The notes below the pieces were generated by a model. The model worked only from the letters and a program-made list of their open reading frames with translations, ran no database searches and was not told where the DNA came from. Source: an uncultured Marinilabiliaceae bacterium (GTDB lineage Bacteria > Bacteroidota > Bacteroidia > Bacteroidales > Marinilabiliaceae). From it: DNA of 14,274 nucleotides. The DNA is taken from assembly GCA_905235955.1 (NCBI GenBank), contig CAJONN010000050.1, positions 1-14,274 on the forward strand. Direction: 5' to 3'. Shown here in pieces: positions 3,801 through 9,400 of the stretch (position 1 is its first letter; each line of letters starts with the position of its first letter). Both the position numbers and the translations under genes were made by a program.

Positions 3801-5075
3801 ATGAATATAAGCAGAACCGACATTGAAATAATGGCACCAGTAGGCTCGTATGAGTCGCTTATGGCAGCATTGCAAGCTGGTGCTGACTCAGTTTATTTTG
3901 GCATAGAACAGCTCAATATGCGTTCGCGTTCGTCAAACAACTTCACCAAAGACGACCTGCGCAAAATAGTTGAAATAGCCAACCAACACAATGTCAAAAC
4001 CTACCTCACCGTCAACACCGTCATCTACAACAACGAACTCTCGCTGATGCGCGAAGTGGTTGATGCTGCCAAAGAAAATGGAGTAACAGCCATCATAGCA
4101 TCAGACTTGGCAGTTATCACCTATGCCCGACAGATAGGCGTTGAAGTACACATATCAACACAATGCAACCTTACCAACGTAGAGGCAGTAAAGTTTTTTA
4201 GCCAAATGGCCGACGTAATGGTGCTTGCGCGTGAATGTAACATGGAGCAAGTGAAGGAGATACATCAAGCCATAGAGCGCGAAAATATCAGAGGACCCAA
4301 AGGCGACCTTGTCAAAATAGAGATGTTTGCCCATGGTGCACTCTGTATGGCAGTGAGTGGAAAATGCTATCTGAGTCTCAACACACTTGGCGAATCGGCC
4401 AATCGGGGCGCATGCTTGCAAGTGTGTCGACGTAGCTACCTCGTGCGCGACCGCGAAACAGGCACCGAACTCGAAGTTGACGGCAAATACATCATGTCGC
4501 CCAAAGACCTCAAAACCATTGACTTCATAGACCGCATGCTCGATGCAGGTGTGCGTGTGCTGAAAATAGAGGGGCGCGCTCGCTCGGCCGACTACGTATA
4601 CACCGTTGTAAAATGCTACAACGAAGCTATAAACGCCGTATGCAATGGTCAATATGACCAAATAGAAAAAGGACATTGGGACGAACAACTCTCCAAAGTC
4701 TTCAACAGAGGCTTTTGGGATGGCTATTATCTGGGGCAGAAAATGGGCGAATGGAGTGGCAGATATGGCAATATGGCAACAGAAAAAAAAGTATACATAG
4801 GCAAAGCTCAAAACTGCTTCTCGAAACTTGGCGTAGGCGAATTTGTAATGGAAACAGGCGAGCTAAGCGTAGGAGATAAAATAGTAGTGATGGGTGCAAC
4901 CACAGGCGTGCTCGAAGCTGAAGTAAGCGAACTGCGTGTAGCACTTTCGCCCACCAACATAGTGCGCAAAGGCGATGTATTCTCAATGCCAGTGCCAAAC
5001 AAAGTTCGTCGAAACGACAAACTATATAAAATAGTGCCCGCTGAAAAGGTAAACGATGGACAAGGAGCAAAATAA
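3801..5075 (+). CDS. U32 family protein, RlhA/TrhP-like RNA hydroxylation factor
   Basis: A 424-residue member of the so-called peptidase U32 family. It begins with a TIM-barrel-like domain (EIMAPVGSYESLMAALQAGADSV). The family signature ExFxxG[SA]xCx4GxCxxS is fully present at residues 174-192, and further cysteines at 205 and 209 complete a plausible Fe-S ligand set with Cys182 and Cys189. A small beta-rich domain lies C-terminal of about residue 335. In E. coli the relatives TrhP (YegQ) and RlhA (YdcP) act in prephenate-dependent hydroxylation of tRNA U34 and 23S rRNA C2501 respectively, so the older peptidase label is doubtful. I cannot tell which RNA this one serves. Translation is probably coupled to the preceding gene. 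The use of prephenate by relatives is notable because the chorismate/prephenate operon follows. Confidence 0.88.
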   Translation: MNISRTDIEIMAPVGSYESLMAALQAGADSVYFGIEQLNMRSRSSNNFTKDDLRKIVEIANQHNVKTYLTVNTVIYNNELSLMREVVDAAKENGVTAIIASDLAVITYARQIGVEVHISTQCNLTNVEAVKFFSQMADVMVLARECNMEQVKEIHQAIERENIRGPKGDLVKIEMFAHGALCMAVSGKCYLSLNTLGESANRGACLQVCRRSYLVRDRETGTELEVDGKYIMSPKDLKTIDFIDRMLDAGVRVLKIEGRARSADYVYTVVKCYNEAINAVCNGQYDQIEKGHWDEQLSKVFNRGFWDGYYLGQKMGEWSGRYGNMATEKKVYIGKAQNCFSKLGVGEFVMETGELSVGDKIVVMGATTGVLEAEVSELRVALSPTNIVRKGDVFSMPVPNKVRRNDKLYKIVPAEKVNDGQGAK

Positions 5076-5092
5076 CATCACGGATCTTTTCA

Positions 5093-5120
5093 TTTAATTG
5101 TTTAGCTTCGCTCAATTAAA
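5093..5120 (+). terminator. Hairpin after the U32 gene, possible terminator or repeat remnant
   Basis: TTTAATTG (5093-5100) pairs perfectly with CAATTAAA (5113-5120). An inner AGC/GCT pairing closes a TTC loop, with three unpaired T on the left side. It lies 18 bases after the U32 stop codon, where a terminator is expected, but no clean run of T follows (ATTTTAAC). The loop core AGCTTCGCT resembles the GCTTCGCTACG words of the dispersed repeat elsewhere in the window, so it may be a degraded small repeat. Confidence 0.4.
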
Positions 5121-5187
5121 ATTTTAACACAGAAGAAAAAATTAAAACTTTTCAGAGGTAAAGTGAACATCGTATAAATAGTTTTTA

Positions 5188-5195
5188 TATCTTCG
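5188..5195 (+). promoter_or_regulatory. Putative -7 promoter box of the aromatic amino acid operon
   Basis: TATCTTCG followed by CAGTG differs by one base from the Bacteroidota TAnnTTTG -7 box and has the typical downstream GCA. Transcription starting some 7 bases later would give a leader RNA of about 180 bases before pheA, carrying the whole short ORF and attenuator hairpins. I see no clear -33 box. Confidence 0.45.
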
Positions 5196-5228
5196 CAGTG
5201 TGAAATCAAAAGCAAACAAGAAAGAATT

Positions 5229-5309
5229 ATGTTCAACACCCGATTTTATATTGGCTTTTACTTTTACTTTTTTGGTTATCGCCAAGAAAAGGGTGGGTGT
5301 TGTATGTGA
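5229..5309 (+). CDS. Phe/Tyr-rich leader peptide of the pheA operon
   Basis: A 26-codon ORF, ATG to TGA, beginning about 30 bases after the predicted transcription start. It encodes six Phe and four Tyr; residues 6-17 read FYIGFYFYFFGY, with nine aromatic residues in twelve. The remaining tail is Gly/Cys-rich. It matches the classic attenuator leader peptides such as E. coli PheL, whose translation speed reports charged tRNA levels. Here the codon mix would report both Phe and Tyr, the end products of the operon's two branches. The peptide itself probably has no function after synthesis. The tract is T-rich, which favours Phe codons by chance. The alternation with TAC/TAT and the fit with the downstream hairpins are what make the call convincing. 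No strong ribosome binding site is visible, which is normal in this phylum. Confidence 0.8.
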   Translation: MFNTRFYIGFYFYFFGYRQEKGGCCM

Positions 5310-5362
5310 TGATAAAACGATAACGAACTAACAAAAGCCCACCCGAACAAGGTGGGTTTTTT
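5234..5362 (+). promoter_or_regulatory. Ribosome-mediated transcription attenuator of the aromatic operon
   Basis: Four segments make mutually exclusive pairs. Segment 1 (CAACACCC, 5234-5241) pairs over 8 bases with segment 2 (GGGTGTTG, 5295-5302), aided by TTTT 5244-5247 with AAAA 5287-5290 and TTGGC 5251-5255 with GCCAA 5281-5285. This hairpin encloses the Phe/Tyr codons. Segment 2 (GGGTGGGT, 5291-5298, then TTGT 5300-5303) can instead pair with segment 3 (GCCCACCC, 5337-5344, and ACAA 5331-5334) as an antiterminator. Segment 3 otherwise pairs with segment 4 (GGTGGG, 5351-5356) as a terminator. A ribosome stalled on 5256-5279 for lack of charged tRNA would break 1:2, leave 2 free for 3, and let transcription reach pheA. 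A ribosome running on to the stop at 5307 would cover 2 and permit termination. The pairings are read directly; the mechanism is inferred from known attenuators. Confidence 0.78.
5333..5362 (+). terminator. Attenuator terminator hairpin upstream of pheA
   Basis: CCCACC (5338-5343) pairs with GGTGGG (5351-5356) around the 7-base loop CGAACAA. The stem is extended by one G-U pair and four A-U pairs into the T run at 5357-5362. It ends 17 bases before the pheA ATG, a position that only makes sense as a conditional terminator for the operon. Confidence 0.85.
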
Positions 5363-5379
5363 GTTTTGATAGAGAAAAA

Positions 5380-6246
5380 ATGAAAGAGAAAAAAAGAGTG
5401 GCAATACAAGGCGTAGCCGGTGCAAACCATGAAATAGCAGCACGCGAATTTTTTGAAGGATACGACGTTGAAATAGTGCCTTGCATTACATTTGAAGAGC
5501 TATTCAACCGAGTACGCCAAGACCGTTCACTCTACGGCATAGTAGCCATTGAAAATACACTTGTTGGCTCAATACAGTCAAACTACACACTGCTTAAAGA
5601 TTCAGGCTTGGAGGTGATAGGCGAATACAAACTGCGCATCAAACACAACCTGATGGCACTGCCCGGCGTGAAAATGGAAGACCTCACCGAAGTGCGTTCA
5701 CATCCAATGGCACTGCGCCAATGCGAAGCCTTCTTTCGCGACTATCCGCACATACGCATCACCGAGAGCGACGACACAGCATTATCAGCCAAAGATGTAG
5801 CCGACAAGCAGCTCAGAACAGTGGGCGCCATCGCTCCAGAATTGGCAGCCAGCCTATATGGCCTCAACATATTACACAAAGGCATCGAAACCAACAAGAA
5901 AAACTTTACCCGATTCTTGGTAGTGAGCGACCGAGGACGCACCGAAATTGACGACCTATTGGCACAAAACCGCATCAACCGCTCGTCGATAGTATTTTCG
6001 CTACCCGGCAACGAAGTGGGCAGTTTGTCAAAAGTGCTAACAATACTCGCATTCTACGGCATCAACCTATCAAAAATACAGTCGAATCCTGTTGTTGGGC
6101 ACGAATGGGAATACCTATTCTATATAGACCTCTCATTCAACAACTACACACGCTACATACAAGCCCTCGATGCAGTTCGTCCGCTATGTGCCAAACTTGT
6201 TGTGCTTGGCGAATATGAAAACGGCAGGCAAAGCCACGAAGACTAA
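5380..6246 (+). CDS. pheA: Prephenate dehydratase
   Basis: It converts prephenate to phenylpyruvate in the Phe branch. The 288-residue protein has the two-lobed dehydratase domain at about residues 5-182, with the AIENTLVGSI stretch and the catalytic TRF motif at 177-179 (NFTRFLVV). A C-terminal ACT domain follows at about 203-280. In many PheA proteins the ACT domain binds Phe through GALV and ESRP motifs; here the matching sites read GSLS (214-217) and QSNP (234-237), so allosteric control by Phe may be altered. There is no N-terminal chorismate mutase domain as in E. coli PheA; that activity is supplied by the DAHP synthase fusion two genes on. The ATG follows the attenuator terminator by 17 bases. 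The next gene begins 34 bases after the stop. Confidence 0.95.
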   Translation: MKEKKRVAIQGVAGANHEIAAREFFEGYDVEIVPCITFEELFNRVRQDRSLYGIVAIENTLVGSIQSNYTLLKDSGLEVIGEYKLRIKHNLMALPGVKMEDLTEVRSHPMALRQCEAFFRDYPHIRITESDDTALSAKDVADKQLRTVGAIAPELAASLYGLNILHKGIETNKKNFTRFLVVSDRGRTEIDDLLAQNRINRSSIVFSLPGNEVGSLSKVLTILAFYGINLSKIQSNPVVGHEWEYLFYIDLSFNNYTRYIQALDAVRPLCAKLVVLGEYENGRQSHED

Positions 6247-6280: not shown

Positions 6281-7441
6281 ATGATAATAGAGCCATCGAA
6301 AAGAGCAAACACAGTACAAGAGTACTACTTCTCGCGCAACAATAGACGCCTTGATGCTATGCGACAAGCTGGCACTGACGTTATCAACCTCGGAATAGGT
6401 AGCCCCGATATGCCACCTGCCGATGAGGTGATAGAGACACTCGCCAACGAAGCACGCAAACCCAACGTACACGGCTATCAATCATATGTAGGTATACCTG
6501 AACTACGCAATGGATACGCACAATGGTATGAGCAGTGGTATGGCGTAAAACTCAATCCGAGCAACGAAATATTGCCACTCATAGGTTCCAAAGAGGGTAT
6601 TATGCACATCATGATGGCATTTATCAATGAAGGCGATGGCGTTCTCGTGCCAGATCCGGGCTATCCAACCTATTCGTCGGTAGCCAATCTTGTAGGAGCT
6701 CGCACCATAAAATACAAGCTCTATGAACATTTAGGCTGGCAACCCGACTTCGACGAACTGGAGAAAACCGACCTCAAGGGGGTAAAGATGATGTGGATAA
6801 ACTATCCGAACATGCCAACCGGCGCACCCGCTACTATGGAGTTATATGAAAAAATAGTAGACTTTGGTCGCCGACACAGCATACTCATCTGCAACGACAA
6901 CCCATATAGTTTCATTCTCAACGAACATCCAATAAGCCTCTTGGCTGTTGAAGGTGCAAAAGATGTAGCCATTGAGCTCAACTCAATGTCGAAGGCACAC
7001 AATATGGCAGGTTGGCGTTTTGGTATGGCAGCCTCTAATGCCGACGTGATAGCCACTGTACTCAAAGTGAAATCGAATATGGATAGTGGCGTTTTCCGCC
7101 CAATGCAAATGGCAGCAGCCAAAGCTCTGACATTGCAAAAAGATTGGTTCGACAAGATAAACAAAGAGTATAGAGAAAGACAAAAATATGCCTTTGAGAT
7201 AATGGAAACACTTGGTTGCAAAGTAAACCGCAAGCAAGGCGGACTCTTTGTTTGGGCTCAGGTGGCCGATAAATGGGCAAATGCTGAAGCGCAAAGCGAC
7301 GAAGTGCTCAAACAGACAGGCGTATTCATCACCCCCGGCTTCATATTTGGCAGCCAAGGTGAACGATTTTTGCGCATATCGCTATGTGCCAAAGTGCCAG
7401 TTTTTGAAGAAGCACTAAAGCGCATTAAAGCTATGAAATAA
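6281..7441 (+). CDS. Class I/II PLP aminotransferase, probably aromatic amino acid aminotransferase
   Basis: A 386-residue fold-type I aminotransferase. Visible motifs are the substrate/PLP loop LGIGSPDMPP (37-46), NYPNMPTG (174-181), the PLP-binding Asp206 in CNDNPYS, the Schiff-base lysine Lys238 in SMSKAHNMAGWRFG, and the carboxylate-binding Arg365 in RFLRISL. The family also contains aspartate, alanine and LL-diaminopimelate aminotransferases, and sequence alone does not fix the substrate. The position between pheA and the DAHP synthase/tyrA pair suggests that it turns phenylpyruvate and 4-hydroxyphenylpyruvate into Phe and Tyr. The gene is closely packed with pheA, with a 34-base gap, and is presumably under the same attenuator. 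Confidence 0.88.
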   Translation: MIIEPSKRANTVQEYYFSRNNRRLDAMRQAGTDVINLGIGSPDMPPADEVIETLANEARKPNVHGYQSYVGIPELRNGYAQWYEQWYGVKLNPSNEILPLIGSKEGIMHIMMAFINEGDGVLVPDPGYPTYSSVANLVGARTIKYKLYEHLGWQPDFDELEKTDLKGVKMMWINYPNMPTGAPATMELYEKIVDFGRRHSILICNDNPYSFILNEHPISLLAVEGAKDVAIELNSMSKAHNMAGWRFGMAASNADVIATVLKVKSNMDSGVFRPMQMAAAKALTLQKDWFDKINKEYRERQKYAFEIMETLGCKVNRKQGGLFVWAQVADKWANAEAQSDEVLKQTGVFITPGFIFGSQGERFLRISLCAKVPVFEEALKRIKAMK

Positions 7442-7505: not shown

Positions 7506-8603
7506 ATGGAAACTAAATTGGACTTGGAGCCCATAACGCTCCCCGGTATCGAACTCACTCGCCCTATTGTTATTGCTGGTCCATGCTCAGCAGAAACTGA
7601 AGAACAAGTAATAAATACAGCACAAGAATTGGCAGCCAACGGTGTAAAAATATTCCGTGCTGGCATCTGGAAGCCTCGTACACGTCCTGGTGCATTTGAG
7701 GGTGTTGGCTCTGAAGGTTTGCCATGGATGCAACGAGTGAAAAAAGAAACTGGCATGTTCATATCTACCGAAGTTGCTACAGCTCACCACGTACATGAAG
7801 CCATAAAATATGGTGTCGACCTACTTTGGATTGGAGCTCGCACTACAGCCAACCCATTTGCTGTGCAAGAAATAGCCGATGCACTGCGTGGAACCAACTT
7901 GCCAGTGCTCATCAAAAACCCCGTAAACCCTGACCTCGAATTGTGGATAGGTGCGTTTGAACGTTTGAACCGTGCCGGAATAAAGAAACTTGGTGCCATA
8001 CATCGCGGTTTCTCAACCTATGAGAAAACCAAATACAGAAACCACCCAATGTGGCAAATACCCATTGAGTTGCATCGCCGCATACCCAACTTGCCCATCA
8101 TCACTGACCCATCGCACATCACAGGCAACTGCGACCTCATTCAAGATGTATCGCAAGAGGCAATGGACCTCAACTTCGACGGTCTTATAATAGAGAGCCA
8201 CGAATGCCCCGCACGCGCTTGGAGCGACGCTAAGCAACAAGTAACGCCTGCACACCTCAAGATGATACTTGACGGCATCGTATTGCGCGACCATGCCATA
8301 GCTGACAAACCTCGCCAGACACTTGACGAACTACGTGGCGAAATAGACAAACTCGACGTAACATTGCTCGAAACACTTGCCAAACGTATGAAAATATCAG
8401 AAGAAATAGGCAAATACAAATACGAGCACGGCATCACCATACTACAAGAACGCCGATACGACGAAGTGCTACAAAGCCGCAGAGATCAGGCAGTAAAGCA
8501 AGGACTGAACCCAGACTTCGTAGTGAAAGTGTATGAAGATATACACGAAGAATCAGTTGCTACGCAGAACAACATAATGAAAGAACTTTCAAAGAAAAAC
8601 TAA
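7506..8603 (+). CDS. Bifunctional DAHP synthase / chorismate mutase (type Ibeta DAHPS-AroQ fusion)
   Basis: It catalyses the first step of the shikimate pathway (phosphoenolpyruvate plus erythrose 4-phosphate to DAHP) and the conversion of chorismate to prephenate. The 365-residue protein has a DAHP synthase barrel at about residues 10-262. Likely metal ligands are Cys27 in GPCSAE, His204 in DPSH, Glu230 in IIES and Asp241, with substrate motif KPR at 56-58. An all-helical AroQ chorismate mutase domain covers about 270-360; Arg277, Arg294 (KRMKISEEIGKYK) and Arg316/317 (ILQERRYDEVL) fit its active-site basic residues. C-terminal mutase fusions of this kind are known in Bacteroidetes, where the mutase domain can mediate feedback by prephenate or chorismate. 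It supplies the mutase that PheA and TyrA here lack. The 64-base gap before it is AT-rich with no clear promoter. Confidence 0.95.
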   Translation: METKLDLEPITLPGIELTRPIVIAGPCSAETEEQVINTAQELAANGVKIFRAGIWKPRTRPGAFEGVGSEGLPWMQRVKKETGMFISTEVATAHHVHEAIKYGVDLLWIGARTTANPFAVQEIADALRGTNLPVLIKNPVNPDLELWIGAFERLNRAGIKKLGAIHRGFSTYEKTKYRNHPMWQIPIELHRRIPNLPIITDPSHITGNCDLIQDVSQEAMDLNFDGLIIESHECPARAWSDAKQQVTPAHLKMILDGIVLRDHAIADKPRQTLDELRGEIDKLDVTLLETLAKRMKISEEIGKYKYEHGITILQERRYDEVLQSRRDQAVKQGLNPDFVVKVYEDIHEESVATQNNIMKELSKKN

Positions 8604-8623: not shown

Positions 8624-9400
8624 ATGAGAATCTGTATCGTAGGTGCGGGCAAAATGGGGGCATTCTTGGCCGACTCAATGTGTCTTTTGCACGAAGTAGC
8701 CATCTTTGACGTCGACATCAAACGACTACAATACGTATTCAACACACGTAGGCTTACTACACTTGATGAAATCCGCGACTTCAATCCCGAACTCATCATC
8801 AACGCCGTAACACTCAAATATACTCTGTCAACATTTCAAAGTATATTGCCCTATATATCAGCTAATTGTATGCTGTCTGATATAGCATCGGTAAAGACTG
8901 GGCTCAAAGAGTTCTATGAGGCAAGCGGTCATCCATACGTGTCGACACACCCAATGTTTGGTCCTACTTTTGCCAACTTGCGCGAACTACGCAAAAACCA
9001 CGCCATCATCATCTCAGAGGGCGACCATTTGGGTAAAGTATTCTTCAAAGACTTCTATGGCTCACTTGGTCTCAACTTGCACGAATACACCTTTGATCAG
9101 CACGATGAAACCATGACCTACGCACTCTCTATACCATTCGTAGCCACCATGGCATTTGCCGCAAGCATGCGCTATCCTGACGCACCCGGTACTACATTCA
9201 ACAAGCACCTCGAAACTGCCAAAGGCGTATTGTCAGAAGACGACTACCTGCTCTCTGAAATACTCTTTAGCCCCTATACACCCGATAAAATAAATCAAGT
9301 TATTTCACAAATGACACGGTTGAAGGGCATTATAGAGAAAAAAGATACGCAAGAGATGAAAGATTATTTGACAGAGTTGAGGAAAAATATATTTGGATGA
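8624..9400 (+). CDS. tyrA: Prephenate dehydrogenase
   Basis: It oxidatively decarboxylates prephenate to 4-hydroxyphenylpyruvate in the Tyr branch, using NAD(P). The 258-residue protein begins at once with a Rossmann fold (MRICIVGAGKMG, GAGKMG at 7-12). An acidic FDVD at 28-31 ends the second strand, which favours NAD. The motif STHPMFGP (His109) and the helical-domain His160 in FDQHDETM fit the prephenate site of TyrA enzymes. It is a minimal dehydrogenase: there is no mutase domain and no C-terminal ACT domain. Enzyme-level feedback by Tyr is therefore less likely and transcript-level control more important. It follows the DAHP synthase fusion by 20 bases. Confidence 0.92.
   Translation: MRICIVGAGKMGAFLADSMCLLHEVAIFDVDIKRLQYVFNTRRLTTLDEIRDFNPELIINAVTLKYTLSTFQSILPYISANCMLSDIASVKTGLKEFYEASGHPYVSTHPMFGPTFANLRELRKNHAIIISEGDHLGKVFFKDFYGSLGLNLHEYTFDQHDETMTYALSIPFVATMAFAASMRYPDAPGTTFNKHLETAKGVLSEDDYLLSEILFSPYTPDKINQVISQMTRLKGIIEKKDTQEMKDYLTELRKNIFG

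Follow-up and report, generated by a model that had tools for sequence, protein, structure and literature searches.

The pheA operon described here is very probably (about 0.92) controlled by a transcription attenuator of the ribosome-mediated type, with Phe and Tyr as the amino acids sensed. It lies in a window of 14,274 nucleotides, the whole stretch of DNA analyzed, from the 2.18 Mb genome (271 contigs, completeness 81%) of an uncultured Marinilabiliaceae bacterium, and reads, in order, pheA, aminotransferase, DAHP synthase/chorismate mutase and tyrA (Table 1). A leader open reading frame (ORF), the pairings that its RNA can form, the conservation and covariation of these pairings, and the gene content of the operon were calculated here. 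The proposal of a Phe/Tyr leader peptide attenuator, first made from the letters of the DNA alone (hereafter the sequence-only reading), is supported by aromatic leaders in 43 of 43 testable pheA loci, by covariation in the antiterminator (2:3) and terminator (3:4) helices, and by 55 of 64 covariance model matches that precede aromatic-biosynthesis genes.

Table 1. Features of the operon and of its leader (positions in the window).
Feature	Position	Strand	Basis
Probable -7 promoter box TATCTTCG (TAnnTTTG with one mismatch)	5188..5195	+	Aligned motif in relatives
Leader peptide ORF MFNTRFYIGFYFYFFGYRQEKGGCCM	5229..5309	+	26 codons, ten Phe/Tyr; stop codon 5307-5309
Segment 1, immediately 5' of the aromatic codons	5234..5241	+	CAACACCC, perfect 8-bp complement of 5295-5302 GGGTGTTG
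Segment 2, at the 3' end of the ORF; a ribosome on the stop codon overlaps it	5291..5303	+	2:3 duplex energy, covariation
Segment 3, pairing into the antiterminator with segment 2 or into the terminator with segment 4	5331..5344	+	Duplex energy, covariation
Segment 4 (5351-5356) and T run (5357-5362)	5351..5362	+	Terminator scan, 3:4 covariation
pheA, prephenate dehydratase, first structural gene of the operon	5380..6246	+	Pfam PF00800, E 7.6e-55
Class I/II aminotransferase, probably aromatic	6281..7441	+	PF00155; aromatic substrate inferred from context
Bifunctional DAHP synthase/chorismate mutase	7506..8603	+	PF00793 and PF01817
Prephenate dehydrogenase (tyrA)	8624..9400	+	PF02153, E 1.7e-7

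The Leader ORF and Its Aromatic Codons

Translation and coordinates confirm the ORF that had been noticed in the 304-nt gap between the end of the upstream gene (5075) and the start of pheA (5380): nine of its ten Phe/Tyr residues (F2, F6, Y7, F10, Y11, F12, Y13, F14, F15, and Y17) fall within residues 6-17, and a run of codons for the operon's own amino acids stands before an operon for Phe and Tyr. The upstream gene (3801-5075) is a U32-family member whose top score is to TrhP, the prephenate-dependent tRNA hydroxylase (186 bits, well short of the cutoff of 534), with UbiU close to it (168 bits); prephenate is what the product of the adjacent pheA uses up.

Aromatic richness was scored as the count of Phe, Tyr, and Trp in the richest 14 consecutive residues (the best stretch) of any ATG-initiated ORF of 10-45 codons within 450 nt upstream. 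The window scores 9, a value reached by none of 200 dinucleotide shuffles of its own upstream region. Across shuffles of all 43 testable regions a score of 7 was reached by 135 of 8600 and a score of 9 by three, and the reverse strands of these regions score 0-6. When the upstream regions of 275 control ORFs (at least 200 aa, on either strand of the fetched loci, with gene status unchecked and some loci counted twice) were scanned alike, five reached 7 or more and none reached 9. A coding signal is also seen among seven sequences of the genus, in which codons 5-19 show 105 differing codon pairs (pairwise, hence non-independent, differences), 48 of them synonymous, 12 aromatic-to-aromatic and 45 other, against synonymous differences of only 16/96 and 16/86 in the other two frames.

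Conservation Ahead of pheA

The search of 61 genomes, that of the window included, gave 46 PheA matches in 45 genomes, of which 45 were taken after a 64-residue fragment (G042) was dropped. The contig end was too near in two loci, one with 3 nt of upstream sequence (L041) and one with 101 nt (L009) that nonetheless shows a terminator-like hairpin. In each of the 43 testable loci, i.e., the window and 42 relatives, an aromatic leader scoring 7-13 and a terminator (a GC hairpin followed by T's) were found, so that the aromatic-rich ORF anticipated for close relatives is indeed kept. The lowest value includes L031, where the run scores just 7 and is apparently out of frame with its relatives, perhaps through a homopolymer error.

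Named genomes were scanned as well, and the best 80 of 592 PheA loci were kept, three of which proved to have 140 nt or less of upstream sequence. This yielded an aromatic leader in 75 of 77 testable loci, namely 74 with an ATG leader scoring at least 7 and one (L077) whose leader, by manual reading of the sequence, is a read-through from GTG. The two sets are not independent, since at least eight loci are the same contigs. No aromatic leader was found in L105 or L125 among the 77, two loci in which coding-looking sequence seems to extend near pheA, and the terminator scan of the 74 ATG-leader loci fell short of its criterion in L073, L082, and L089. Both Phe and Tyr occur in the best stretch of 41/43 leaders among the relatives and of 72/74 in the named set. 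The best-matching named locus among the best 80 of 592 belongs to the uncultured Bacteroidales bacterium SIG108. The element is also present in Phocaeicola vulgatus ATCC 8482 (L093), a culturable commensal that offers a ready test system. One relative (L045, genome G060) apparently carries tandem attenuators upstream of pheA, with a 27-residue leader and its terminator followed by the peptide MFYYYFFYYP and a second terminator-like hairpin.

Mutually Exclusive RNA Helices

The three exclusive pairings put forward by the sequence-only reading (1:2, 2:3, and 3:4 with a T run) can be read directly from the sequence at the positions of Table 1, so that an antiterminator and a terminator compete for segment 3. 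The core of helix 2:3 joins 5291-5298 GGGTGGGT to 5337-5344 GCCCACCC with a single G-T pair, and that of helix 3:4 joins CCCACC at 5338-5343 to GGTGGG at 5351-5356, just before the T's. A terminator scan of positions 5070-5400 lists the stem over 5333-5361 and returns four terminator-like sites on both strands, against a shuffle mean of 0.2. The 138-nt leader folds with a z-score of -3.3 (0/200 shuffles equally stable), and helix 1:2 of the window is matched in strength by none of 100 shuffles.

Pair changes were counted in 32 family members, and both structures were read off these same sequences, which favors them over slid versions in the comparisons that follow. Helix 2:3 is paired in 87.9% of cells (slid controls 35-54%) and has 23 cells with two-sided changes (mean of the shuffles 5.9; 0/500 shuffles reach 23); its pairs changed on both sides (3 vs. 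2.8) and its further pair types (9 vs. 9.6) do not exceed the shuffles. Helix 3:4 is paired in 97.6% of cells (slid controls 29-59%), with 51 two-sided changed cells (shuffle mean 16.1; 0/500 reach 51), six of nine pairs changed on both sides (equaled in 30/500 shuffles) and 13 further pair types (98/500). For helix 1:2, pair counting on the alignment was dropped because segment 1 shifts register between genera, and duplex energies compared with shuffles were used in its place. By that measure, at most 5 of 100 shuffles are as strong as helix 2:3 in 41 of 43 sequences (the exceptions being L022 and L040) and as strong as helix 1:2 in only 15 of 43. The mean 2:3 energy is -21.0 for matched pairs vs. 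-14.6 for segments swapped between species, and the corresponding 1:2 values are -15.3 and -12.3. Compensatory change had been expected in all three helices; it holds for 2:3 and 3:4, but 1:2 is significant in only those 15 sequences.

Predicted Switching between Antiterminator and Terminator

Switching was modeled by folding with a ribosome-sized mask, both on full-length transcripts and on transcripts cut before segment 4. For the window, the claimed geometry, in which a stalled ribosome frees segment 2 and a ribosome at the stop codon covers it, is reproduced on the cut transcript: the antiterminator forms for 10/10 stalls, is absent with the ribosome at the stop codon and is present without a ribosome. 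Over the whole set the antiterminator forms at most aromatic stall positions in 40/43 sequences (exceptions L015, L016, and L024), but 16/43 still antiterminate on cut transcripts with the ribosome at the stop codon. The stop codon of four sequences (L027, L029, L032, and L033) is situated well beyond segment 2, and we conjecture that the ribosome may hinder helix 2:3 there by occupying its loop.

At equilibrium on full-length transcripts, the terminator forms in 43/43 sequences with a stop-codon ribosome and in 41/43 without a ribosome, and it wins at most aromatic stalls in 39/43. The window is among the exceptions, with 7/10 stalls giving the antiterminator and the terminator forming when the ribosome is at the stop codon or absent. 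Since the terminator wins on full-length transcripts, the model needs helix 2:3 to form before segment 4 is synthesized, which is also the order of events in the standard attenuation model.

The mechanism that we infer comprises a promoter, translation of the leader, stalling, read-through, and a response to Phe and Tyr. Transcription would start near 5200 and a ribosome would translate the leader peptide behind the RNA polymerase. On the one hand, with plentiful Phe-tRNA and Tyr-tRNA, the ribosome would reach the stop codon at 5307-5309 and cover segment 2, and the 3:4 terminator (5333-5361) would form. On the other hand, should either charged tRNA be scarce, the ribosome would stall in the aromatic codons at 5244-5279 and leave segment 2 free to capture segment 3, so that no terminator would form and the operon would be read. 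In the weakest step of the scheme, helix 1:2 may form first when the leader is not translated and so favor termination. Ribosome-free folds of the cut transcripts, which give the antiterminator in 33/43 sequences, the window among these, speak against 1:2 as a strong default, and termination in the absence of translation is not secured by these modeled folds.

The promoter is suggested by a box that we take to be the Bacteroidota -7 consensus, TAnnTTTG, exact copies of which, ending 16-57 nt upstream of the leader ATG, are present in 39/43 sequences, vs. 522/8600 mononucleotide shuffles. The box of the window (TATCTTCG) has one mismatch and lies 33 nt before the ATG; L035 likewise has one mismatch, and the box is absent from L038 and L043 among the 43 upstream sequences. 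For the window by itself such a pattern does not reach significance, and the terminator/promoter scan of 5070-5400 found no site of the sigma-70 type. A transcription start downstream of 5309 is unlikely because a promoter-like box precedes the leader ATG in those 39 sequences.

Other Readings of the Leader

The attenuator might work as set out above and yet have as its main or added output a short terminated leader RNA, or the peptide itself, acting in trans. A precedent is provided by the leader peptide peTrpL of Sinorhizobium meliloti, for which a trans role is reported (PMC7298713). The peptide of the present family varies greatly between families of bacteria, which weighs against such a role, and we consider it improbable. 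Poorer still are the prospects of nascent-chain sensing of the TnaC kind, in which free Phe or Tyr bound at the ribosome, and not a lack of charged tRNA, would stall an aromatic peptide. That the peptide is strongly biased and keeps a conserved core in close relatives would suit this idea, but arrest peptides need fixed residues, whereas Phe, Tyr, and Trp interchange here and the length and order of the run vary between families, as fits the sensing of cognate codons. The sign would also be reversed, as stalling in times of plenty would free segment 2 and turn a biosynthetic operon on. An ordinary terminator between operons next to a chance T-rich ORF is scarcely credible and is regarded as already refuted by the conservation of the leader, for although the region is T-rich and does hold an intrinsic terminator, the shuffles and control ORFs rarely or never match the aromatic score, the antiterminator covaries, synonymous bias is confined to one frame, and a promoter-like box stands between the upstream gene and the ORF.

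Distribution in the Phylum

A covariance model, built from 95 leaders including that of the window, was searched against 296 genomes of the phylum, that of the window among them, and gave 64 matches in 60 genomes at E 1e-3 or better. The outcome agrees with the covariance search envisaged at the outset, since 55 of the 64 precede aromatic-biosynthesis genes: 48 lie within 400 nt of pheA on the same strand, four (L144, L147, L148, and L159) lie 3.5-3.8 kb upstream of pheA and directly before a DAHP synthase/chorismate mutase gene, and three other aromatic leaders stand before genes for DAHP synthase (L222), tyrA (L223), and DAHP synthase/chorismate mutase (L227). One match (L220, genome G286) is a His-rich leader, MTLSQLHHHHFHTCIQASWN, with a terminator before hisG, another (L225) lies before ilvD with no clear leader, and seven are treated as false, without assignment. 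In the genome of the window, the window itself is the sole confident match (E 6e-14, as a training sequence), with six weaker ones at E 0.035-0.83.

A PheA occurs in 258 of these 296 genomes, most of them outside the class of the window. Within the class, the model matches at an aromatic gene in 46 of 66 PheA-bearing genomes. Eleven of the remaining 20 were opened (L171, L173, L174, L179-L181, L193, and L230-L233, a set that leaves out G072, G155, G250, G270, G286, G309, G325, G337, and G341), and all 11 have an aromatic ORF scoring at least 7 by criteria relaxed to admit ATG, GTG, or TTG starts and lengths of 9-40 codons. Outside the class, the model picks up ten genomes, and in six of these (G126, G216, G343, G200, G244, and G315) its match falls at an aromatic gene; 18 further loci were opened, with a leader in L172 alone and none in L190 or in L234-L249 (16/16). 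These counts suggest an element that is typical of the class, which its named members indicate to be Bacteroidia, and sporadic outside it.

On balance we lean toward a still broader statement, namely that a Bacteroidia-wide Phe-plus-Tyr attenuator constitutes an RNA family missing from Rfam, in which interleaved codons set both branches of the pathway at once, which in some lineages is followed not by pheA but by DAHP synthase-chorismate mutase, DAHP synthase, or tyrA, which is tandem in at least one, and which operates in bacteria said to initiate translation without Shine-Dalgarno pairing. The attenuator described here assigns a predicted mechanism and input signal to the Phe/Tyr operon of very common gut and environmental bacteria, for which the literature searched holds little direct documentation of leader peptide control, and a model of the family would annotate the leader where Rfam gives nothing above its cutoff.

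Relation to Known Systems

With E allowed up to 1, Rfam gives a single match in the window, RF01859 (Phe_leader), at 32.6 bits against a gathering threshold of 55; no T-box family match was found there at the same limit. Above its cutoff, RF01859 occurs in 0/61 genomes, and its 16 sub-threshold matches include four just before pheA. Rfam was set aside as proof of the family, the RF01859 matches being sub-threshold only and the two inspected away from pheA (L126 and L129) resembling plain terminators. Comparison of PheA with a plasmid collection gave relatives below 60% identity only and was left unused.

No description of a Phe/Tyr leader attenuator in Bacteroidales was found in the literature searched, in agreement with the sequence-only reading; most subscription papers lie outside that literature. 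The abstract of Vitreschak et al. 2004 reportedly mentions attenuators in Bacteroidetes/Chlorobi. Lopatovskaya et al. 2010 is cited in passages of PMC4833913. Small ORFs that recall leader peptides occur in 5' UTRs of B. thetaiotaomicron according to parts of PMC7366714, in whose main text the terms “pheA” and “phenylalanine” are absent.

Tryptophan has a Bacteroidota cis-regulatory motif of its own, Bacteroid-trp (RF01692), listed in passages of PMC2864571, which differs from the Phe/Tyr leader in amino acid and genes; searched up to E 1 in the window and at E 1e-3 in the genome of the window, it gave no match. Just below the RF01692 cutoff, one genome (G004, contig C43) carries two near-identical Trp leaders about 4 kb apart, ..NNWWWRLRKHNS (L166) and ..SNWWWRLRKHNS (L168), both with a WWW peptide and a terminator, the gene that follows being trpE-like in one case and trpB-like in the other. 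In the genome of the window (contig C114 of G000), positions 409-552 hold a leader rich in branched-chain residues, MTTIFNIVVLHLLVVVLVVQP, with a terminator, directly before an ilvD-type gene (L160), which makes it probable that the genome employs leader peptide attenuation in more than one place. Patterns of His and Trp codon runs, with 42 and 47 places in the same genome, were too unspecific to be of use.

The closest published parallel in the phylum concerns Flavobacterium psychrophilum and other Flavobacteriaceae, in which conserved structured 5' elements without Rfam matches lie before pheA and hisG, and in F. psychrophilum strong clues point to leader peptide attenuation before amino-acid operons, as stated in passages of PMC9723704. 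The element is thus not restricted to Bacteroidales, and with the covariance model other families of the class likewise prove to have aromatic leaders upstream of pheA. The flavobacterial pheA elements resemble the leader studied here in their Bacteroidota host, their position before pheA, and the lack of an Rfam match above cutoff; they differ in that peptide and helices are not described in the main-text passages of PMC9723704, whereas the present element is from Bacteroidales and comes with covariation.

In its predicted mechanism, the element is a classic and ordinary attenuator, and what it adds is a leader of wide evolutionary spread, for Phe and Tyr alike, that goes unreported by Rfam at its cutoff. 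Its nearest anatomical counterpart is pheL-pheA of E. coli (RF01859), with which it shares a leader ORF rich in aromatic codons, helices 2:3 and 3:4 that exclude each other, a T run, and a prephenate dehydratase gene downstream. Unlike pheL, which carries Phe only, the leader of the window interleaves Tyr with Phe, its pheA is monofunctional, and the operon that follows makes Tyr as well.
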